A DNA stretch of 60,137 nucleotides from ANME-2 cluster archaeon. Lineage in GTDB: Archaea > Halobacteriota > Methanosarcinia > Methanosarcinales > Methanocomedenaceae. The stretch spans positions 1-60,137 of the forward strand of contig JAAXOC010000096.1 of the NCBI GenBank assembly GCA_014237145.1, written 5' to 3'. Position 1 is the first letter of the stretch. Each line of letters begins with the position of its first letter. Shown here piece after piece: positions 27,197-45,157 of this stretch. Made by a program: the position numbers and the translations under genes. Below the pieces are notes generated by a model. The model was given only the letters and a program-made list of their open reading frames with translations. It did not search any database and had not been told where the DNA came from.

Positions 27197-28132
27197 ATGA
27201 CCGGTCCGGTCAACTTTGTGGTGGATGTGGACATCTCAAAGTTCTTTGACACTGTGTATCACAAGCGACTGGTGGAATGTCTGAAGCAGAGAATCATAGA
27301 CCCGACTTTATTGCAGCTGATTGTTCGATTCCTAAAGTCTGGCATAATGGAAGAGGGAGTTTACTGTGAGACGGATAAAGGTACGCTACAGGGTGGTGTA
27401 CTGAGCCCCGTACTCGCCAATGTATACCTCCACTATGCGCTGGACTTGTGGTTTGAGACTGATGTGATTCCACAGCTAACTGGTTATGCCCAGCTAGTTC
27501 GATATGCAGATGACTTCGTTGTCTGTTTCGAAAAAGAGGAAGAAGCCAGAGCATTTGGAGTTGCGCTGAGGCAGCGAATGAGCAAGTTCGGACTTACGAT
27601 ATCCGAAGAAAAGAGTAAGATTATCGAGTTCGGACAATGCGCATGCCATAGAGAAAGGAAATATGGCTGGAAATGTGAAACCTTTGATTTTTTAGGTTTT
27701 ACGCACTTCTGCGATGAAACCCGAAGAGGCAAATTCAAGCTTGGGCGGAAGACGTCACGCAAGAAGTTCACACAGAAGATGAAGGATATGAATATATGGT
27801 TGAAGAGTATCCGAAATCTTGTTGAATTGAAAATATGGTGGAAGGTGCTGGGGCTAAATTTGCTTGGACATTACCGGTATTACGGTATGAGCGGTAACAT
27901 ACGGTGGCTACAGAACTTTTACTATCAGACTGTGAGACTTGCTTTCAAATGGATAAACAGGCGTAGTCAGAGGAAAAGCTATAACTGGGCTCAGTTTCTC
28001 CGTTTCATCCTATTTAATCCACTCCCGAAGCCGAAGATATCATTCGCTATACAACCTGAAACCGTAAAGGATGTGCTTCTGAAGAGCCGGATGAGGACAA
28101 TCTTCATGTCCGGTTCTGAGGGGGGGCCATAG
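27197..28132 (+). pseudogene. ltrA: group II intron reverse transcriptase, N-terminally truncated
   Basis: The 311 codons begin in the middle of the RT domain (FVVDVDISKFFDTV) and include GGVLSPVLANVYL, the catalytic YADD in LVRYADDFVVCF, the thumb/maturase region and a C-terminal GII-maturase-like part. Roughly the first 100-150 residues of a complete RT are missing; a stop codon lies a few codons upstream next to the inverted repeat. The frame runs through domain V of the intron, as often seen in such ORFs. Splicing and mobility should be lost. Confidence 0.85.
28084..28116 (+). ncRNA. group II intron domain V
   Basis: GAGCCGGA pairs with TCCGGTTC in a hairpin of the size and shape of domain V, with an AGC triad candidate at its base. 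A GGGG/CCCC hairpin just downstream (about 28127-28152) may be domain VI with the 3' splice site near 28153. Confidence 0.65.
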
Positions 28133-34568: not shown

Positions 34569-35875
34569 CATGTTTAATAACGACATTGAACCGATTGACA
34601 ACAATCGTAACCACCATGTTAACCATGGCCGGGCGAGTAACCATGCTTGGAATATCACGTTGGACTGATGATGGTGGCAGTTACCGCACAATTCAACGTT
34701 TTTTCAATACCAAGATCAGAGGGAAAAAATTCATTGGTGCTTGATTCGTCAATATTTTTTGGATGACGATGACCCATTTATCTTTGTCGGTGATGAAACG
34801 GTTGTAACAAAAGCCGGAAAGATGACGTATGGCCTCAATCGATTTTTTTCATCCATCTATGGAAAAACGGTGCCAGGTTTAGATTTTTTCACATTATAAT
34901 TGATAAGTACAAAGCAGCGAACCTCTTACCCATTGATAACCTAGCAGATGACTCATTCTGAAGATAAAAAAAACGACAAAAAACGCAATTACTGCAGAAG
35001 ATCGTAAAAATAAGCAAAATAAAAGCGATTGCCCTACAAAAAGAGAAAGAGGTAGGCCAAAAGGCAGTAAAAATAAAAACAAAGTAGATGTCGAACTATC
35101 ATCTTATCTATACATCATTCAGAGTATTCTTAAGGGAATGTTGAAGCTAATTGGTTCCACCATTCCTATCACATATATTGCACTTGATGGTGCATTTGGG
35201 CACAATAATGCTTTACAAATGGTCAGACAATGCAAATTGCACATTATTTCAAAATTACAATATAATTCTGCACTCTATTTCCCGTATAAAGGCACATATC
35301 ATGGGTGTGGTGCACGTAGAAAATATGGTGATAAAATTGACTACAGCTGCATCCCATCCAAATATTTGAAAGAAACCATTATTGAAAAGTCAGTTCAAAT
35401 TGAGATTTATCAAATGGATATGCTGCACAAGCGATTTGCTCAAAAGCTAAATGTGGTTATTATTGTTAAAACCAATCTCAAAACACATGCACGGGGGCAT
35501 GTGATATTGTTCAGCAGTGATCTAAAGTTGGCCTATGACAAGTTAGTCGATTATTACAAACTACGTTTTCAGATTGAGTTTAACTTCCGAAATGCAAAAC
35601 AATATTGGGGTCTGGAAGATTTTATGAATGTCAAGGAGGTTCCTGTAACTAACACTGCCAACTTAGCTTTTTTCATGGTGAATGTTTCTCAGGCATTAAT
35701 TCACAATGTTCACAAGGATGATCCCCACTTTGGCATCCAAGACCTTAAAGTATACTTCAGAGGTGGCAAATATGTCAATGAAACATTAAAATTACTACCA
35801 CAAAAACCAGACCGAATTTTAATTCAGCAGATATTTAGCCGAATAACGAAAATTGGAAGTATTAATAGTGGTTAG
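34569..35875 (+). pseudogene. IS4/IS701-like DDE transposase, several frameshifts
   Basis: The fragments in order are AGRVTMLGISRW with SYRTIQRFF, then FVGDETVVTKAGK (first Asp), then from 35138 an intact 245-codon C-terminal part with YIALDGAFGHNNA (second Asp) and RFQIEFNFRNAKQYWGLEDF (Glu). Frame changes occur near 34720 and between 34900 and 35100. It cannot make a functional transposase unless the missing part is restored. Confidence 0.75.
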
Positions 35876-35997: not shown

Positions 35998-37284
35998 ATG
36001 GAAAAAGAAAAAATAATCGAAATACTGGACGAATGGAATTTCTGGTCAAAGACTCCGGATTGTGGAATTCTACGGGACGGATATCTCCAGCTATTTGAAA
36101 ACATGAAAGCAACACAACAGGTCGTATTCATAACCGGAGTCCGGCGCTCTGGAAAATCCACCTTGATGAAACAGCACATCAAGAAAATGATCGATAAAGG
36201 CGACGACAAAAGGAATTTCCTTCACATTAATTTTGAAGAACCAAAATTCATTGATGAATTGTCAGTCCAGTTTTTAATTGACGCATTTGATGCATACCTG
36301 GAGATAGTACAGCCGACTTCAACCCCTGATCTTTTCCTTGATGAGATCCAGAATGTTAAAGGCTGGGAGCGGTTTGTACGTGCACTACATGAAAAGAGGA
36401 GTGCAAATATCTTTGTTTCAGGTTCATCTGCCAAGTTACTAAGTAAAGAACTTGGTACTGCACTTACAGGCAGGCATATTGATATCCATGTATATCCGCT
36501 GACCTTTAGGGGGTTTCTGGAATTCAACGATCTTAAGCTGGAGACAAAGCTGGATATTGCAACAAATAAATTGAAGATCAGGCAGATGATGCGGAAATAT
36601 CTCTCATCCGGTGGATTTCCCCTTGTTGTACTGCTTGACGGGAATAATGATATACTGCGTGATTATTTTAACGATATTATTTTACGGGACATAGCTGAGC
36701 GGTACAGGGTCCTCAAAGTGGATAAGTTACGAAGTCTTGCAAAATATTATTTGACCAACATCGGAGCTCCGTCATCTTTCAGAAAGATTGCGAATTTTAT
36801 TGGTATAAGCCTGGACAGTGTAGAGAGGTATTCCTACCACCTCAGTGATGCTTACCTGATCTTTTTCGTGAAAAAATTTTCATATTCACTCAAGGAGCAG
36901 GAAATAAATCCGCGCAAGGTCTATGCCATCGACCCCGGACTGCGCAATATTGTGAGCTTCAAGTTCAGTGAAGATGTGGGGAAACTTTATGAAAATACGG
37001 TATTTCTGGAACTGTACAGGATGGGGGAAGAGGTTTATTATTATCAGGGCAGGCATGAATGCGACTTTGTGGTAATGAGAGGACAGAACATTACACAGGC
37101 ATTCCAGGTCTGCTATTCCCTGACTAAGCAAAACAGGGAGCGTGAGATTGCAGGTCTGCTTGAAGCTATGGATGAATTCGAGTTAAGCGAGGGTACGATA
37201 ATCACGGATGATGTGGAGACTGTTGAGATGTATGGTGATAAGAGCATCAGGTTTGTGCCTTTGTGGAAATGGCTGCTGGGTTAG
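35998..37284 (+). CDS. AAA_14/DUF4143 ATPase
   Basis: This 428-residue member of the common archaeal AAA_14-DUF4143 ATPase family has Walker A GVRRSGKST near residue 47, Walker B LFLDEIQNVKGW and sensor VSGSSAKLL. The C-terminal DUF4143 part includes a nuclease-like stretch (YYYQGRHECDFVV). The biological role of the family is unclear; such genes are frequent in variable regions. It is followed 25 bp later by the first copy of the nifB-end repeat. Confidence 0.82.
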   Translation: MEKEKIIEILDEWNFWSKTPDCGILRDGYLQLFENMKATQQVVFITGVRRSGKSTLMKQHIKKMIDKGDDKRNFLHINFEEPKFIDELSVQFLIDAFDAYLEIVQPTSTPDLFLDEIQNVKGWERFVRALHEKRSANIFVSGSSAKLLSKELGTALTGRHIDIHVYPLTFRGFLEFNDLKLETKLDIATNKLKIRQMMRKYLSSGGFPLVVLLDGNNDILRDYFNDIILRDIAERYRVLKVDKLRSLAKYYLTNIGAPSSFRKIANFIGISLDSVERYSYHLSDAYLIFFVKKFSYSLKEQEINPRKVYAIDPGLRNIVSFKFSEDVGKLYENTVFLELYRMGEEVYYYQGRHECDFVVMRGQNITQAFQVCYSLTKQNREREIAGLLEAMDEFELSEGTIITDDVETVEMYGDKSIRFVPLWKWLLG

Positions 37285-37309: not shown

Positions 37310-37402
37310 TCACCCATGGAAATACTCACCCTGCGCCGCCTTCTGCACAGGCGACCCACACGGTTCAGCCCCAGGCACACCCACAGCATCGGCCCGGCAC
37401 TG
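37310..37402. repeat. repeat copy A of the nifB 3' end
   Basis: About 93 bp match, with few differences, the plus-strand sequence 44267-44358 that encodes the last 30 or so codons of nifB. It is not in any gene here. Orientation is the same as at nifB. Confidence 0.85.
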
Positions 37403-37782
37403 ATGGTATAACATAGACTGAAAAGCTAAACATTTTACGATAAATTATTCCAATAGTTTAATACGTCTTAATACAAGTTTATATTCATTATTTATCAATC
37501 AATTATTTCATATAAGACTAATACAGTATTAGTTCAAATTTATAAAAGAAAATACTATAATCAATTAATAAGAATGTTTGAAATTAAAAAGATGGAACAA
37601 GGCAATAAATAAGATACTCACAGAAGATAGACAAAAACTTATGTTGTATTGTATTTTTAAAAAAATGAGAATGTCTCTGAATATAATGACACCAGTGGGA
37701 TTGTAGAAGGAAATTCTGCTTAACTTTGTGTTGACATAATTGGGTAAAGTTTGAAAGTATTAAAATAGACAGGAGCTTGAAT
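37403..37782. other. AT-rich gap before the ATPase-nuclease module
   Basis: No gene is supported. AT-rich promoter-like sequence (several TTTATAA/TATTTAT stretches) lies in the middle. AGGAG precedes the ATG at 37783. Confidence 0.45.
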
Positions 37783-39171
37783 ATGAAACTATCAATTAAA
37801 AATCTCGGCCCATTAAAACAAGCTGAATTTGAACTTGGCGAACTGACTATTATTTGTGGACAAAATAATACAGGTAAAACATATGCCACTTATGCCGTTT
37901 TCGGTTTTCTTTCTGAATGGAGAAAGGTTTTTTCAATACACGTACCTAAAAATAATATTCAACAGCTTCTTACAGAAGGTGTAACTGAATTAGACATTCA
38001 GGAATTTGTAATTGATGCTCAAAATATTCTAAAGAAGGGGTGTAAATCTTATACGGAACGACTTCCAACTATATTTGCATCTTCTCCGCAAAAATTTATC
38101 GAATGTGATTTTCGGGCGCATCTTAATACCAATGATATTCAGCCAATTTCAAAATTCGAAAGAACAATTAGCGCAACGAAATCTCAGTTGTTTTCTATAT
38201 CCAAGAAACAAAATCAGTCCAAAATCACAATTTCTTTACTAGTAGAAAAAGAGAATGTACGTATTCCAAATGAAATCATCAACCATGTGATAAGTGATGC
38301 ATTGAAAGATATAATTTTTGGTCATCTTTTTCCAAACCCATTTATTGCAAGTGCCGAACGCACAGGGGCTGCAATATTTCGTAAGGAACTTAACTTTGCC
38401 AGAAATCGACTATTGGAACAGGTGGGTAGCATGGAAAAGGATGTAAATCCATTTGAATATATCAATAAAGCATACTCTGATTACGCATTACCAGTAAATA
38501 AAAACGTTGAATTTACACGACATCTTGAAGAGATAGCAAAAGAGGAGAGTTTTATTTTAAAAGACCATCCAGCGTTGCTTGAAGAGTTTTCCGATATCAT
38601 TGGCGGCAAATACGCTGTAACGAAAAACGATGAGCTTTATTACACGCCCAGGTCTAATCAAAGTCTGAAACTAACAATGGATGAAAGCTCCAGTTCAGTG
38701 CGCTCACTTCTAGATATTGGTTTTTATCTACGTCATGTTGCTCAACCTGGCGACATTCTTATGATTGACGAACCAGAGCTAAATCTCCATCCAGAAAATC
38801 AGCGCCGTATAGCAAGGTTGTTTTCTCGTCTGGTCAATATTGGGATCAAAGTATTTCTCACTACCCATAGCGATTATATTATAAAGGAACTGAATACTCT
38901 GATTATGCTCAACCAGGACAAACCATATTTGAAGAAAATATCTAAGGACGAAGGATACAGAGAAGAAGAACTGATCTCCGCGGATAAAATACGGGTTTAC
39001 ATTGCAGAAAAATCTCTATTGATGCTGAATAAAAATAAACGGAAAACTCAAGTTCAAACACTAGTTGCTGCCGACATCGACCCAGAACTTGGCATTGAAG
39101 CACGCAGTTTTGACACTACAATTGAAGATATGAATCGTATTCAGGAAGCAATTATCTGGGGAGATGAATGA
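37783..39171 (+). CDS. AAA-family (AAA_15/AAA_21, RecF/OLD-like) ATPase
   Basis: This 462-residue SMC/ABC-like ATPase has Walker A CGQNNTGKT near residue 30, Walker B ILMIDEPELNLHPENQRR near residue 325 and an H-loop FLTTHSDYIIKEL. A helical insert lies between the two halves. No TOPRIM nuclease follows, unlike OLD or GajA proteins. The start at 37783 is set by AGGAG upstream. It overlaps the following PD-(D/E)XK-like gene by four bases, so the two form a translationally coupled pair of the kind found in antiphage systems. The exact family is unresolved. Confidence 0.8.
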   Translation: MKLSIKNLGPLKQAEFELGELTIICGQNNTGKTYATYAVFGFLSEWRKVFSIHVPKNNIQQLLTEGVTELDIQEFVIDAQNILKKGCKSYTERLPTIFASSPQKFIECDFRAHLNTNDIQPISKFERTISATKSQLFSISKKQNQSKITISLLVEKENVRIPNEIINHVISDALKDIIFGHLFPNPFIASAERTGAAIFRKELNFARNRLLEQVGSMEKDVNPFEYINKAYSDYALPVNKNVEFTRHLEEIAKEESFILKDHPALLEEFSDIIGGKYAVTKNDELYYTPRSNQSLKLTMDESSSSVRSLLDIGFYLRHVAQPGDILMIDEPELNLHPENQRRIARLFSRLVNIGIKVFLTTHSDYIIKELNTLIMLNQDKPYLKKISKDEGYREEELISADKIRVYIAEKSLLMLNKNKRKTQVQTLVAADIDPELGIEARSFDTTIEDMNRIQEAIIWGDE

Positions 39172-39737
39172 TGGTTATGACTGATTTAGATATTTTGAAC
39201 GATATGATAATGGATTCTGCAAAAGTAGATATTGAACCTAAAAGCGGTTCAGACAAGGCGTCTGTTACTTTAAAAGAACCACAATCCCCTGCTTCCAAAG
39301 TTGTAATTTTTGGCTTGCCCCATAATGCCATTGTGATAAGGGTGGATGCATTCAAATCACCAGATACGATTCTAACTGAAACAAGAGGCCAGCGTAAACG
39401 TGCTGATTATATCATCGTAGCTAATAAGAATGGAAAAAAGAATATATTACACATTGAGATAAAGACTACTAAAGATAGTGAGAAAAATATCATTAAACAA
39501 TTGAAAGGTTCAGTCTGTTTCGTTGGTTATTGCAAAGAAATTGCAAAACAATTCTGGTATGAAAACGATTTTTTATCCGAATTCAATCATCGATATGTGA
39601 GTATTACCCGCACAGGCAGCATTCCAAAAAGGAAGACTCGAACAGAGAAGAAATGGGAAGATAATGATACTCCCGAACATATGATGAAGTTAAGTTATCC
39701 ACATAAACCACAATTCAACCGATTGGTAGGAGCATGA
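39168..39737 (+). CDS. predicted PD-(D/E)XK-like nuclease partner of the ATPase
   Basis: The 189-residue protein starts inside the ATPase stop codon (ATGA). A candidate restriction-endonuclease-fold core is KRADYIIVA followed by an HIEIKTTK strand, giving the D...E-x-K arrangement. The C-terminus is basic. No similarity to HNH, TOPRIM or HEPN partners is seen. The pairing suggests the ATPase controls this nuclease. The assignment is from the motif only. Confidence 0.6.
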   Translation: MMVMTDLDILNDMIMDSAKVDIEPKSGSDKASVTLKEPQSPASKVVIFGLPHNAIVIRVDAFKSPDTILTETRGQRKRADYIIVANKNGKKNILHIEIKTTKDSEKNIIKQLKGSVCFVGYCKEIAKQFWYENDFLSEFNHRYVSITRTGSIPKRKTRTEKKWEDNDTPEHMMKLSYPHKPQFNRLVGA

Positions 39738-39871: not shown

Positions 39872-39946
39872 TCACCCATGGTAATACTCACCCTGCGCCC
39901 GCTTCTGCACAGGCGACCCACAACATAGGCCCGGTATTGCTGGCAC
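39872..39946. repeat. repeat copy B of the nifB 3' end (shortened)
   Basis: It matches the same nifB-end sequence as copy A, with an internal deletion of about 26 bp after CGACCCACA. Upstream, copies A and B also share a GGTAG...AAAGAC-CATCACCC stretch not present at nifB itself, so they are closer to each other than to the parent. Confidence 0.8.
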
Positions 39947-39950
39947 AACA

Positions 39951-41375
39951 TTACACATCCACACCCATATAATCGTCAAGAGTAAGCAGTAAAACCCCAT
40001 CCTTTTTTGCTGTCTTTTTCAGATTTTCAGTAAATCCGGATTTACTTATAAGGCAGAAATACTCCTTTCGACCTGGTAGCCACTTTACATAACCGGCTTT
40101 TTCCTTGAGTTTATGGTAAACATCAATGCTGGCCTTCTTGTCCTGCCATTTACATTCACAACACAGGATCTGCAATGTATCGTTGTTCACTGCCACTATG
40201 TCAATCTCATAGTCATTCTGCCCCTTAGCTGCCAGCGGGATTTTTCCCCATTGCCTGCCAATCTTATGAAAACTAAATGGCATTTCACCAGTTGAATTAA
40301 GATGTGTCAACATCTCTATGCTTATTTGCTCAAATGTTTCGCCAAGAAAGGTGTTGTAATTTTTCCCAACATCATCAATTGCCTGCATATAATCTCCCTG
40401 CTCCAATGAGTCCTTATGCAGCAGCACATACCTGAACCAGAAGCGCAGGAAATTGTCCTGGATACGATAGATGGTCTTTTTTGTTGTGGTTTTCTCTGTA
40501 ACAGGATGCTCTTTTCTTACAAAACCCAGGCGTATAAGGGTTTCCAGATAATATGGCAGGTCCTTTGCCTCCATGAACGACCTGGCAGCAATATCCCCGG
40601 GCCTGGTTGCGCCCTTTGATATGGCAAAGAGGATGTTCATAAAAGTGGCAGGCTCCCGCAGTTCTTCGCGCAGCAGGAATTCGCCCTCTGCATAGAGTAC
40701 GGTGTCCTTTGCGAACAGGTTGTGCTTGAGATTGTCTAGGAATGTGTTATTCGGATCAAAGAACTGCAGGTAAAACGGAACGCCTCCGGTGGCACCGAAT
40801 ATTTTCACCAGTTCATCCTGGGATAATCCAGGGAAGAATTCGTGGATATGCCGAAACAGGATTGGCTGTACTTTTATCTGGCCTGTCCTTCTGCCATACA
40901 GCGGACTTGAATATGCGAGTGTGCTTTTCTCAATCATGGACACTGACGAACCGCACAGTATGAGGTGGAATGGTCCGTCTTTTAGGATTTCATCGACTAT
41001 CAACTGGAAAACTGAGGGGATTGAATCATCCTGCTGGACCAGGTAGGAAAATTCATCGATAATTATTACAAGTTTTTCTTTGCGGGTCCATTTTGTCTTT
41101 ATGTAATTGAACACTTCGTCAAATGTTTCCAGGCTGGGTTCGAAGTCCTCGAAAAAGTCTGCGGCTTTTTTCCTGAACCTGTAGAGGTTTGACCTGGTGC
41201 CCCTTCTGTCTGCCAGAAAGTAGATGTGGGGCTTATCTTGCTGAAAATTGTGTATAAGTTCGGTCTTACCGACCCGGCGGCGGCCGTAGATGACTGTGAA
41301 TGAGAAGGCTTTGTTTTGGTAATCACGGTTTAAGGATGAGAGTTCTTCTGTGCGGTTGATAAATTTACGGAGCAT
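39951..41375 (-). CDS. archaeal ATPase with C-terminal DUF234 domain
   Basis: This 474-residue archaeal-type P-loop ATPase has Walker A GRRRVGKTE near residue 31, Walker B IIIDEFSYLV and sensor LCGSSVSMIE. A winged-helix region follows, then a DUF234 domain with a nuclease-like motif (YEIDIVAV ... CCECKWQ). Family members are abundant in archaeal genomes, with unknown function. Its stop lies five bases from repeat copy B. Confidence 0.85.
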   Translation of the reverse strand: MLRKFINRTEELSSLNRDYQNKAFSFTVIYGRRRVGKTELIHNFQQDKPHIYFLADRRGTRSNLYRFRKKAADFFEDFEPSLETFDEVFNYIKTKWTRKEKLVIIIDEFSYLVQQDDSIPSVFQLIVDEILKDGPFHLILCGSSVSMIEKSTLAYSSPLYGRRTGQIKVQPILFRHIHEFFPGLSQDELVKIFGATGGVPFYLQFFDPNNTFLDNLKHNLFAKDTVLYAEGEFLLREELREPATFMNILFAISKGATRPGDIAARSFMEAKDLPYYLETLIRLGFVRKEHPVTEKTTTKKTIYRIQDNFLRFWFRYVLLHKDSLEQGDYMQAIDDVGKNYNTFLGETFEQISIEMLTHLNSTGEMPFSFHKIGRQWGKIPLAAKGQNDYEIDIVAVNNDTLQILCCECKWQDKKASIDVYHKLKEKAGYVKWLPGRKEYFCLISKSGFTENLKKTAKKDGVLLLTLDDYMGVDV

Positions 41376-41459: not shown

Positions 41460-41492
41460 GGTTTCGGTATATTCAGATGACATTTTTATCAG
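41460..41492 (-). repeat. copy of the methyltransferase start region
   Basis: The 33 bases match 43945-43976 except for a substitution and one inserted base. They contain the start codon and first codons (MSSEYTE) of the broken methyltransferase gene, in the same orientation. It is a remnant of a second copy or a duplication made when the intervening module arrived. Confidence 0.75.
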
Positions 41493-41521
41493 TTCTTGGT
41501 TGGGATAAATGAGGTAAAGAT

Positions 41522-42376
41522 TCAGATAAAATCAAATAATTCTTTTTGGTCAAGTTCATGGATAAAACGATTGCAATCATCACTGAATTTTTTACGGCTT
41601 TTCCAATGGTCAGTAATGGAAATACTCCACACATCTTCACTATTTTTCAGATAATTACTTAATTGTTTTCTTTTACATTGACGAAGGATTGCTCTTACTT
41701 TTTCAACCAGTGTATTTTGTACATTCTTATCCAGATTATCCCAAATATCATCCATAACTTCTTCCGTCAAATTCCTAACCTTAAATTTATTTCTTCCAGT
41801 TATTGAACGTGACATCAGTGTAGTGAAAATAAACGGAGCAATTCTTTTAACTGGACTGCTATCTGTGAATTTTAGTATCAAAGGAGCTTTAGATTTAATT
41901 TCAACCGATTCTGAAAATAAATCATTTAATTTAGGGTCTTTGAACGACCGCCCGTGGATTTGTTCAACAGTTTTATCCAAAATTACTTGTGGGTAATCTA
42001 TCCCCTTCCTAGTCAATTTCTCTTTTAAATGTATTAGATTATCTCGTCCAAATATACCAACATCCAATTCTAAATTTTCTGAAGGAATATCTATACCTTT
42101 CTCAATTAAGTGACGCACTTGGATTGAGTCATACCTGCTTAAATTACTCCCAATTTTAAACTTTCCACCTTTGCATTCTGCGAATAATCCCATATTCTCA
42201 GACATGAAAAGAATATCTGGATTAATAGAGTCAGGAACACCAATTATTGGTTCGATTCTTGAAAGTTTATACCCTGCTTTAAAAAGATGGTTTGGATATG
42301 ATTCGAAATTGTAAGCAAGTCCTAATACTGCATTTATAATATCAAGATGATCAAAAGACTGATCCGTGTTCGTCAA
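41522..42376 (-). CDS. unknown protein with PD-(D/E)XK nuclease-like motif
   Basis: This 284-residue protein is not recognised. Near residues 52-72, NPDILFM and LFAECKGGKF give the D...E-x-K pattern of the restriction endonuclease fold. The rest is mixed alpha/beta with a charged helical C-terminus. It overlaps the upstream gene by 26 bp, and both are far more AT-rich than the flanking methyltransferase fragment, indicating a separate, transferred two-gene unit. Nuclease activity is inference. Confidence 0.6.
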   Translation of the reverse strand: MTNTDQSFDHLDIINAVLGLAYNFESYPNHLFKAGYKLSRIEPIIGVPDSINPDILFMSENMGLFAECKGGKFKIGSNLSRYDSIQVRHLIEKGIDIPSENLELDVGIFGRDNLIHLKEKLTRKGIDYPQVILDKTVEQIHGRSFKDPKLNDLFSESVEIKSKAPLILKFTDSSPVKRIAPFIFTTLMSRSITGRNKFKVRNLTEEVMDDIWDNLDKNVQNTLVEKVRAILRQCKRKQLSNYLKNSEDVWSISITDHWKSRKKFSDDCNRFIHELDQKELFDFI

Positions 42377-43433
42377 AAATCATCACTCCTGGATCTAAAT
42401 AATGTTGAATATTTGTATATAATCTAAAGACCATATTTCCACAAGCATTTTCTGGCAAATATAACCGACCATATTTTTGCATCAAATCCATGCTAAATTT
42501 ATCACCTGTATGAACGTCCACTCCAGCAATTCTTAAGAAATCATCAGTCTGATCATGGATAACACCCCATAATTTGAAGGGGTGCGTCGAATTGATAATT
42601 TTTTCGGAGAGATGGTGGATATCATAATTTTTAGTGAATTTTATTTCAAATGGGCTTCCACTCACAACTTGACCACATGCTGATTTTGTTAAAGACATCC
42701 TGTTATTTTCAATCTCTTTCATTTTGGTACTATAATCATCTATGATTTTGTCAACAAAACGAATATGTTCTTCGATATCGGTTCCTTTATTCACCGTGAT
42801 TTTACCATCGAAAAAAACCTCATCTAAAAATTTTACTTTGTGATTATCTATATTAAGCACTCTAGTAGAAGTTTTTGTTAAAGGATAATTGTTCTCTTGT
42901 AATAACTTAAAAAGATTTTTTGATGGTTTTGTTCCTCTTGACCACAATCTCATGGTCAGTTGGGAAATATCATCTTCCCCTAATTCATCTTCGTTGAATA
43001 TTTCTTGTTTGAATTTTATTGAGAAACCAACATTGACTAACGTACTTTCAATGTTATCTAGCATTTGATGAGGCATCCATAAACTATCAAGTAAAAGCAG
43101 GTTTGTGAATTTATCCATGAATTTATCAATCGTTTCACTGTTCTCCATATTGTACAATTTCCAGAATCTATCAAAAAACGTGTCTATATATAAGACAAAT
43201 CTTTGGCTGTTGTTGCGCACAATTAGGCCAAATAAGAATTTATCGTCAGTTGGTTTTATCTCTATATGATATCCATCGAATGTTAGGGGTATTTTGTCAA
43301 TGTTGCAGTTTGATTCAATAATATTAGTTTTTACATTATACTCTGAACATTCTTCATGTTCTTCCAATGATCGGAGATTTGCGTCAATGGTCCTTTCCAT
43401 TTGCTTATGAAGTTCACCCCTGGATTTTATCAT
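42351..43433 (-). CDS. unknown partner protein of the AT-rich two-gene module
   Basis: The product is 360 residues from ATG 43433; AGGTGG sits eight bases upstream, which argues against the GTG 12 bases earlier. No known domain was recognised. It begins with charged helices (RGELHKQMERTIDANLRSLE) and continues as mixed alpha/beta sequence without membrane segments or metal clusters. Because it overlaps the predicted nuclease gene it is probably its sensor, regulator or targeting partner, which is inference from gene order. Confidence 0.6.
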   Translation of the reverse strand: MIKSRGELHKQMERTIDANLRSLEEHEECSEYNVKTNIIESNCNIDKIPLTFDGYHIEIKPTDDKFLFGLIVRNNSQRFVLYIDTFFDRFWKLYNMENSETIDKFMDKFTNLLLLDSLWMPHQMLDNIESTLVNVGFSIKFKQEIFNEDELGEDDISQLTMRLWSRGTKPSKNLFKLLQENNYPLTKTSTRVLNIDNHKVKFLDEVFFDGKITVNKGTDIEEHIRFVDKIIDDYSTKMKEIENNRMSLTKSACGQVVSGSPFEIKFTKNYDIHHLSEKIINSTHPFKLWGVIHDQTDDFLRIAGVDVHTGDKFSMDLMQKYGRLYLPENACGNMVFRLYTNIQHYLDPGVMIFDEHGSVF

Positions 43434-43526
43434 CTTCTTGACCACCTATTAAACTAAAATAACATTTGAAAGATGAATATGCTTTATGTTTAAGATTTTA
43501 TGTGTCATGAGCTCTCTCTTCTTTCA

Positions 43527-43967
43527 TCATGCATATTGTACATAACATATATGTTTCACTTCTCGTTCATAATTCTTATCCCAAATCTTCACATTATTAG
43601 GGAAATTAAAATTCTCCCCCGTATTGAACGGCGGGTCGATATAAATCAGATCAATCTGCCCCCCATACCCCTGCGCAAGCAGCGCCTGCATCACCAGCAG
43701 ATTATCGCCCCATATCAGCCGGTTTGGTTGGCTGGAAATCTCATCCTCACCAAAATCAAAGAAACTTATCAGGTTGCCGGTCGCCTTCTTCGGATACACT
43801 TCCTCTGCAGTCTGGAACTCAAGGTCTTTGGGCAAGGGTTCACGGCGCGGCTTAGATGCCCAGATAAGGCGGGCAGTATCTTTCTGGCACTTTTTCTCAC
43901 TGCGGAATTGTAGCCGTTCTTCCTGGACTGTGAATTCCGGGTCAGGTTCGGTATATTCGGATGACAT
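43527..43967 (-). pseudogene. DNA methyltransferase, N-terminal fragment
   Basis: The 146 codons match the beginning of site-specific DNA methyltransferases of the type III/N6-adenine kind: NRLIWGDNLLVMQALL and the catalytic motif IDLIYIDPPFNTGENF. The target-recognition and SAM-binding remainder is gone. Similarity stops after NYERE near 43550, where the AT-rich module begins. A matching restriction subunit is not found. Confidence 0.8.
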
Positions 43968-43976
43968 TTTTATCAG
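43945..43976 (-). repeat. methyltransferase start region, partner of the copy at 41460
   Basis: These 32 bases contain the methyltransferase start codon and its upstream GATAAAA; together with 41460-41492 they bracket the AT-rich two-gene module. Confidence 0.75.
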
Positions 43977-44042
43977 ACCTTATTTGAAAGTAATAAAAAT
44001 ATGCGGATAATAAATTTTCTATATTGTTTATTACCAAGAAAC

Positions 44043-44266: not shown

Positions 44267-44358
44267 TCACCCATGGAAATACTCACCCTGCGCCCGCTTC
44301 TGCACAGGCGACCCACAAGGCTCAGCCCCAGGCACACCTACAGCATCAGCCCGGCACT
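44267..44358. repeat. parent copy (C) of the nifB-end repeat
   Basis: This coding segment gives the last residues of NifB. It is repeated as non-coding copies at 37310-37402 and 39872-39946 in the same orientation. The pattern is that expected of an integration target restored or duplicated by successive insertions. Confidence 0.8.
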
Positions 44359-45157
44359 GCTGGCACAGCCTGAACTGCGGCAGGTACTTCCCGGCCACAT
44401 CGCGTACCTGCTTCAGGTCATCACAGGTCGGAGGCTCAGAGTTCTCGAAATCATATAAAGGTATCAGCGGGATAATGTTCATAATATAAGCCCCGTACTC
44501 AGCAGCCTTTTTAGCAATATCTTCGATCTCATCCATATTAATATCAGGCAGCAGCACCGTATTGATCTTGACCACAAACCCTGCCTCGACAGCAGCCTTG
44601 ACACCTTCCCACTGTTTCTCAAGCAAAAGTTCGGCAGCTTCCAGGCCCTTGTAGGTCTTATCGTGGTACCTCACCCATTTGTATATCTTAGCAGCAGTCT
44701 CGGGATTGACAGCGTTCACAGTCACTGTCACACTATTAAGACCCACAGCCTTCAACTCATCGATCTTCTCGCTGAGCAGCAGCCCGTTGGATGCAATACA
44801 CTTGATAAGGTCAGGATGTTTCTCATTCACCATGCGCAGGGTCTCAAAGGTAGCATCATTGGCCAGGGACTCGGCAGGGCCTGCAATACCAACCACCTTC
44901 AGGTTATCCATCTCCTTTACATACTTATCCACCTGCTCCAGCGCCTCCTTGGGCGTCATGATACTACTGCTTACTCCAGGCCTGTGCTCGCATTTATCAA
45001 TGGAGCGGACACAGTATCCGCACTGGATATTGCATTTGGGTGCCACAGGCAGGTGGATGCGTGCGGTCTTGAAGTGCATCTTCTCATTGTAACAGGGATG
45101 TACGCTTGTTAAGTGTGAATATTTGGAGCCTATATTGCCCCAGCGTTCTTCTTTCAT
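44267..45157 (-). CDS. nifB: NifB-type radical SAM protein
   Basis: NifB builds the carbide-containing iron-sulfur precursor of nitrogenase cofactors. The 296-residue product has the radical SAM motif CNIQCGYC near residue 42 and the NifB-typical RSIDKCEHRPGVSS, GIAGPAESLAND and ASNGLL segments. The C-terminal cysteines (RLCQQCRADAVG) are also family-specific. It lacks the NifX-like extension, as in archaeal NifB. Other nif genes are not in the window. The final 30 codons are duplicated twice further left. Confidence 0.9.
   Translation of the reverse strand: MKEERWGNIGSKYSHLTSVHPCYNEKMHFKTARIHLPVAPKCNIQCGYCVRSIDKCEHRPGVSSSIMTPKEALEQVDKYVKEMDNLKVVGIAGPAESLANDATFETLRMVNEKHPDLIKCIASNGLLLSEKIDELKAVGLNSVTVTVNAVNPETAAKIYKWVRYHDKTYKGLEAAELLLEKQWEGVKAAVEAGFVVKINTVLLPDINMDEIEDIAKKAAEYGAYIMNIIPLIPLYDFENSEPPTCDDLKQVRDVAGKYLPQFRLCQQCRADAVGVPGAEPCGSPVQKRAQGEYFHG

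Follow-up and report, generated by a model that had tools for sequence, protein, structure and literature searches.

A paired gene module of archaea and Bacilli whose nuclease-like member carries a putative sliding-clamp-binding tail

NucS/EndoMS (PF01939) is a RecB/PD-(D/E)XK-type nuclease of about 250-300 amino acids (aa) that ends in a clamp motif, of the PCNA type in archaea and of the β-clamp type in bacteria. RnlAB is a two-gene toxin-antitoxin system built around RnlA (RNase LS), and RNase HIII carries a domain like the TATA-binding protein (TBP). TBP lobes bind nucleic-acid duplexes, which in RNase HIII include RNA-DNA hybrids (PMC7221094; PMC3710099). Here we compare these proteins, and type III restriction-modification, with two minus-strand genes, A and B, found in a 60,137-nucleotide contig of an ANME-2 cluster archaeon (JAAXOC010000096.1, assembly GCA_014237145.1), hereafter the window. 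A sequence-only reading of the window had proposed the pair as a candidate new defence system, to be refuted by homology to a known restriction system. Such homology was looked for and not found, and the pair lies among defence genes; the defensive role is one that we infer. The strict pairing of A with B, the clamp motif of B, the invariant residues of A and the repeats flanking the cassette had escaped that reading.

B would share with NucS the nuclease type, the size and the two forms of clamp motif. It is unlike NucS in that its nuclease-like part is N-terminal and a winged helix is C-terminal, in having an obligate partner, A, and in being patchy and borne on plasmids and islands; no B member matched PF01939, permissive E-values included. 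Foldseek places a weak model of A near RnlA and TBP folds, and the two-gene organisation is like that of RnlAB, but A has no profile similarity to RnlA and the size of B does not resemble that of RnlB. A type III Mod methyltransferase gene adjoins the pair in Methanosarcinales. However, A and B are neither Mod nor Res, most relatives have no Mod nearby and the window keeps only a Mod 5' fragment. The PADLOC candidates PDC-M47, PDC-S27 and PDC-S01 are accessory genes of the same island but belong to families different from A and B. Parts of the pair resemble known kinds, a clamp-tethered nuclease such as NucS and a TBP-like binder, but the libraries and papers searched hold no description of either family or of their combination.

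We give about an even chance to the reading that A and B together form an accessory nuclease module of two genes, acting on DNA that carries the replication sliding clamp and serving defence. The pairing, conservation, motifs and patchiness on which it draws are features of the sequences themselves. We infer the rest, namely how B binds the clamp, that the complex cuts, what A recognises and that the module is defensive, as follows. The tail of B would dock on PCNA or the β clamp. A, possibly TBP-like and hence a binder of duplex nucleic acid, would recognise a feature of replicating DNA or, alternatively, would supply partner residues of the active site, and the A-B complex would then cut the DNA. 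The beneficiary would most likely be the cell, or the plasmid or prophage carrying the pair, against competing mobile DNA. A bolder form of the idea, which we regard as possible but doubtful, is that A-B is a new immune-system class of archaea and bacteria that recognises invading DNA by way of the host's sliding clamp: an undescribed, possibly TBP-like partner would sense a replication intermediate, a clamp-docked nuclease would cut it, and the docking peptide would have been re-adapted from PCNA to the β clamp on crossing domains. If the clamp-directed reading is right, an undescribed pair present in roughly 6-12% of the sampled archaeal genomes and in some Bacilli would have its nuclease-like partner wired to the replication clamp by a docking peptide that differs with host domain, and accessory immunity would be linked to replication. 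The proposal is testable, since hosts that can be cultured (Halobacterium, Metabacillus, Lysinibacillus, M. jannaschii) carry homologues on their plasmids.

Gene calls, pairing and distribution

The two genes had been noted as overlapping, and the minus-strand open reading frames (ORFs) do share 26 bp. We took the ATG at 43433 as the start of A because the leader before it is kept in the related loci L002-L005; an upstream GTG at 43445 would add four codons. A Shine-Dalgarno-like GGTGG precedes this ATG, and the conserved leader reads GGTGG, GGCGG or GGAGG and then TCAA.AAG. B starts with the TTG at 42376, and the Methanosarcina relative L006 has an ATG at the same place. The guanine-plus-cytosine (GC) content is 32.4% in A and in B, with 25-31% at third codon positions, versus 44.4% in the S27 gene, 48.9% in the Mod fragment and 51-54% in the radical-SAM, gatB and gatA genes. 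Base use is unlike that of these neighbours, as had been remarked, but low GC is not unique to the pair: the M47A/B genes are at 36% and other stretches of the window at about 28%. In comparisons with L002-L005 the ratio of nonsynonymous to synonymous substitution rates was 0.07-0.15 for A and 0.12-0.19 for B. This purifying selection indicates that A and B are working genes and not spurious ORFs.

Neither A nor B matched a model in Pfam, NCBIfam or PADLOC, or a PDB sequence. The sole known-family match of A was phrog_22469 (E 2.9e-43, residues 27-348), which is uncharacterised and so gives no function. With PADLOC 2.0.0, A, B and ten distant members were unmatched, bar one weak Cas8f match at E 0.03, and many relatives of A and B were likewise left unassigned when compared with Pfam, NCBIfam, PADLOC, PHROGs and the sequences of the PDB. 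Weak matches to DUF7770, Rad50 and SSO1986 were set aside as sub-threshold or isolated. Literature searches found no account of the pair. The initial description of the genes as members of unknown families is borne out.

Profile searches recovered 67 non-redundant A proteins, from archaea, Bacilli plasmids and one prophage-like contig. Of the 67 A genes, 63 have directly behind them, at -151 to +105 bp, an ORF on the same strand that is 180 aa or longer, and 62 of these 63 ORFs match the B profile. The four A genes lacking such a downstream ORF comprise one at a contig end (L126), one with a transposase nearby (L149) and two others. A distant subfamily (L023-L035) was recovered by an A profile built without it, and a B profile built without the same loci matched most of their downstream ORFs (E 8e-11 to 4e-3). 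Judged from these profile matches, the pairing of A with B is obligate in very divergent archaea and in Bacilli, and the two genes mostly overlap.

Seven loci of Methanosarcinales type, L002 among them and all at 55-92% identity, were recovered in a first scan. Plasmids contributed further pairs, from M. jannaschii, Halobacterium, Lysinibacillus and Metabacillus, each with two neighbouring hypothetical proteins annotated in the same order. When genomes were searched with the A alignment, matches were found in 23/393 across the phylum, 24/392 in the haloarchaeal class, 15/232 in another class and 23/186 in the window's order; A was found in none of the five other genomes of the window's genus. 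The module is patchily distributed and in places plasmid-borne. Lying among defence genes and including a nuclease-like core, it fits the earlier picture of a compact, transferable two-gene unit. Scans of viral contigs yielded a single locus and the phage records scanned held no A-B, so we rejected the pair as a common viral gene. In the prophage-like contig L015 the pair sits after a holin/lysozyme-like pair, which is a usual place for accessory genes.

The nuclease-like core and tail of B and its partner A

The sequence-only reading had recognised in B a nuclease-like core, NPDILFM...ECKGG, and these motifs are present. A helix, a strand, a strand with NPD54 and a strand with E67-C-K69 follow one another as they do in PD-(D/E)XK enzymes. 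In the M. jannaschii B protein, weak sub-threshold matches to HSDR_N_2 and DUF234 fall exactly at the PD/ExK site. PD is present in 25-26 of 28 B clusters, and ExK or DxK is found in the clade of the window as well as in most haloarchaea and Bacilli. For the C-terminal region the model shows a winged helix, with a predicted local distance difference test score (pLDDT) mostly of 70-90. B is a likely DNA-cutting protein with PD-(D/E)XK-like motifs, and the motifs, the sub-threshold matches and a low-confidence model suggest a nuclease fold.

Proteins that dock on PCNA follow the consensus Qxx[I/L]xxFF and those that dock on the β clamp follow QL(S/D)LF (PMC9690074; PMC4929162). The ends of archaeal B proteins include QKELFDF, QKDLYDF, QRTIADF, QTSLDDF, QKKLGEF and QETLDKWF, and the FEN1 of the window's genome ends in QQTLDQWF. 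Of three bacterial B proteins, those of L012 and L015 carry QLSLF, in one case as QLSLF-DY and in the other as QLSLF-EEE, and the third has QLTIDEF. The pattern Q..[LIMV]..[FYW] occurs in the last 30 aa of 35/59 B proteins but of only 3/161 proteins encoded nearby; when the last 60 aa are taken, the counts are 40/59 and 4/161 (0/63 for A); shuffled B tails gave a mean of 3.6 and a maximum of 12. Q277 is kept in 25/28 B clusters, with the pattern in 15/28 and either the pattern or a clamp-like form in 17/28. By motif, then, the B tail matches a clamp-docking peptide, of PCNA type in archaea and of β-clamp type in two bacterial members, and such a putative docking tail is common but not universal in B.

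Enzymes of repair and replication typically have clamp tails, and A-B is under purifying selection. Both points are consistent with the main rival explanation, that A-B is a clamp-tethered accessory repair or mismatch-type endonuclease, functionally like NucS/EndoMS, which maintains the chromosome instead of acting against mobile DNA. However, the genome counts given above are patchy even within the window's genus, the pair occurs on plasmids and in defence or integration hotspots, and B has no NucS match in Pfam. We consider chromosome maintenance rather unlikely.

A is far more conserved than B. Across 23 clusters of less than 60% identity, 12 mostly polar or aromatic residues are invariant: K35, E40, R89, D116, W119, T213, Y234, D306, H308, C331, N333 and R337, numbered from the ATG start. 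These residues point to an active or binding site. In the low-confidence AlphaFold model of A, the C-terminal part runs strand-helix-strands-helix. Foldseek leaders for this model included RnlA (probability 0.93), with archaeal TBP further down, and a second library returned viral TFIID/TBP proteins and an RNase LS-like protein. Because the profile comparison with RnlA was negative and the model of A is poor, we treat a TBP-like fold of A as possible and as a lead only.

The same data bear on a toxin-antitoxin-like or abortive module, in which A would be the enzyme, possibly an RNase LS-like toxin, and B its controlling DNA- and clamp-binding partner. Consistent with such an arrangement are the stronger conservation of A with its K, E, R, D, DxH, CxN and R set, the RnlA matches of its model, the winged helix of B and the loss of catalytic residues from B in some clusters. 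Profile comparison was negative twice, which led us to reject RnlA homology as a sequence claim; moreover, B proteins of 280-440 aa are large for an antitoxin and most of them retain PD and ExK or DxK. We judge a toxin-antitoxin module to be distinctly unlikely.

Several observations weigh against the clamp-directed nuclease module that we prefer. The earlier reading had named structure prediction as a check, and both single-protein models came out at low confidence (mean pLDDT 55 for A and 50 for B, below 50 across the B core), and the model of B does not predict a nuclease fold with confidence. Foldseek gave no nuclease match of note for the B model and no PDB match at E <= 0.001 for either model. 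When A was compared with four RnlA-family proteins, hhalign returned probabilities of 0.0-0.2% and no profile similarity. In a large B subfamily ECK is changed to ELT, with threonine in place of the lysine and an invariant SK shortly after, and the haloarchaeal clusters L116, L117 and L118 have no catalytic lysine (CEPE, NCEGN, DCRTN) although A is intact. Since this lysine is replaced or lost in some clusters, B may not always cut. About 11/28 B clusters are without a clear clamp motif.

Insertion history and genomic neighbourhood

The sequence-only reading held that the pair had replaced the remainder of a methyltransferase gene, and comparison with relatives speaks against this (positions in the window are in Table 1). 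The reference type III Mod in L053 is 698 aa long, with a Res of 940 aa behind it. Mod is broken after NYE(R/L)E at codon 144, with the same leader next to the break, in the window, L002 and L003/L144; L004 has a degenerate trace. The order in L002 is the Mod 5' fragment, A, B, a second Mod that runs from codon 26 to the end, and then Res, which places the same junction between a Mod fragment and a second, nearly full Mod with Res. What lies downstream of A and B is, in L003/L144, a fusion of Mod codons 8-41 with Res codons 654-940; in L004/L142, Mod codons 12-176; and in the window, only 30-40 bp of a second Mod start. In the simplest history, a single insertion in an ancestor would have duplicated the 5' end of Mod, and Mod-Res would then have been deleted separately in different lineages. 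As relatives share the junction and one keeps an intact Mod-Res downstream, Mod-Res was probably lost later in the window lineage. The L002 contig, with its archaeal-looking Mod-Res and A-B, is filed under a Desulfobacteraceae metagenome-assembled genome; it is probably mis-binned, since its Mod-Res hardly differs from the archaeal one. Another duplicated Mod 5' end is present in L053 (681-9242), where a degenerate Mod start, a 997-aa methyltransferase-type protein and a 215-aa protein precede Mod and Res.

These junctions also speak to whether A-B is an unusual restriction enzyme working with the adjacent type III Mod. The Methanosarcinales-clade pair adjoins Mod at a common junction, and in L002 it is just upstream of Mod-Res. 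However, no Mod lies beside the pair in L006, L007, L008, haloarchaea or plasmids, Mod in L053 already has its own Res, and the window and L003 lost most of Mod while A-B stays under selection. We therefore regard a restriction component as improbable.

Copies of the 3' end of a radical-SAM gene lie in direct orientation, start at the stop codon and occur nowhere else in the genome. They bracket M47A/B and, separately, S27 together with A-B. The end of this gene has the look of a hotspot for integration, of the sort left by elements that insert at gene ends; near the cassette, no gene was recognised as an integrase. We rejected transposon insertion, for no short target duplication was found and the locus instead has a Mod 5' duplication of ~400 bp and gene-end repeats of 52-111 bp. 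These duplications suggest recombination or integrase-type events. The attachment-site (att)-like repeats, plasmid carriage and the prophage-like contig L015 would also suit passenger genes that function in the transfer or replication of a mobile element, but A-B is not accompanied by any conserved gene for an integrase, replication or mobilisation, and we find a passenger role highly improbable.

Table 1. Positions of the A-B pair, its motifs and surrounding features in the window
Feature	Position	Strand	Basis or remark
Gene A	42351..43433	-	upstream member of pair, about 360 aa; fold possibly TBP-like; 12 invariant residues across 23 clusters
Gene B	41522..42376	-	284 aa, TTG start; PD-(D/E)XK-like N-terminal part, winged-helix-like region, putative clamp-binding tail
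NPDILFM, motif II of nuclease-like core (D54)	42203..42223	-	sequence motif
ECKGG, motif III of nuclease-like core (E67, K69)	42164..42178	-	sequence motif
C-terminal winged-helix-like region of B, residues about 176-275	41552..41851	-	structure model
QKELFDF, putative PCNA-interacting-protein (PIP)-box-like PCNA-binding motif at B C-terminus, residues 277-283	41528..41548	-	motif match
5' fragment of a type III Mod methyltransferase gene, codons 8-144, with the break at NYERE	43557..43967	-	comparison with L053 Mod
Leader between Mod break and A, shared with L002-L004	43434..43556	-	relatives compared
Remnant start of second Mod copy, direct repeat (30-40 bp) of 43947-43986	41463..41502	-	repeat comparison
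3' end of radical-SAM gene (gene 44267-45157), original copy of att-like repeat	44267..44377	-	repeat search
att-like copy of radical-SAM 3' end, 52 bp, 98%	39872..39923	-	repeat search
att-like copy of radical-SAM 3' end, 72 bp at 94%; 111 bp at 88%	37310..37420	-	repeat search
PDC-M47A/B two-gene unit, AT-rich	37777-39737		PADLOC; A at E 2.9e-231; also PD-T4-4_A at 5e-164
Archaeal ATPase, PADLOC candidate PDC-S01	35998-37284		E 1e-121
Archaeal ATPase, PADLOC candidate PDC-S27	39951-41375		E 8e-55

Around 14 relatives, neighbouring genes match DISARM, BrxHI, PLD-helicase, BrxL and type IIG models. At E <= 1e-20, 76 families were matched near A-B versus 43 in control regions of the same genomes, a single rough control in which one region held a BREX-like locus. 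The defence-gene neighbourhood of A-B is suggestive only. The window shows how such modules accumulate in an uncultured archaeon, with insertions marked by duplicated gene ends and Mod fragments. It also holds a group II intron-type reverse transcriptase fragment (27197-28132) and a transposase-like ORF (35138-35875).
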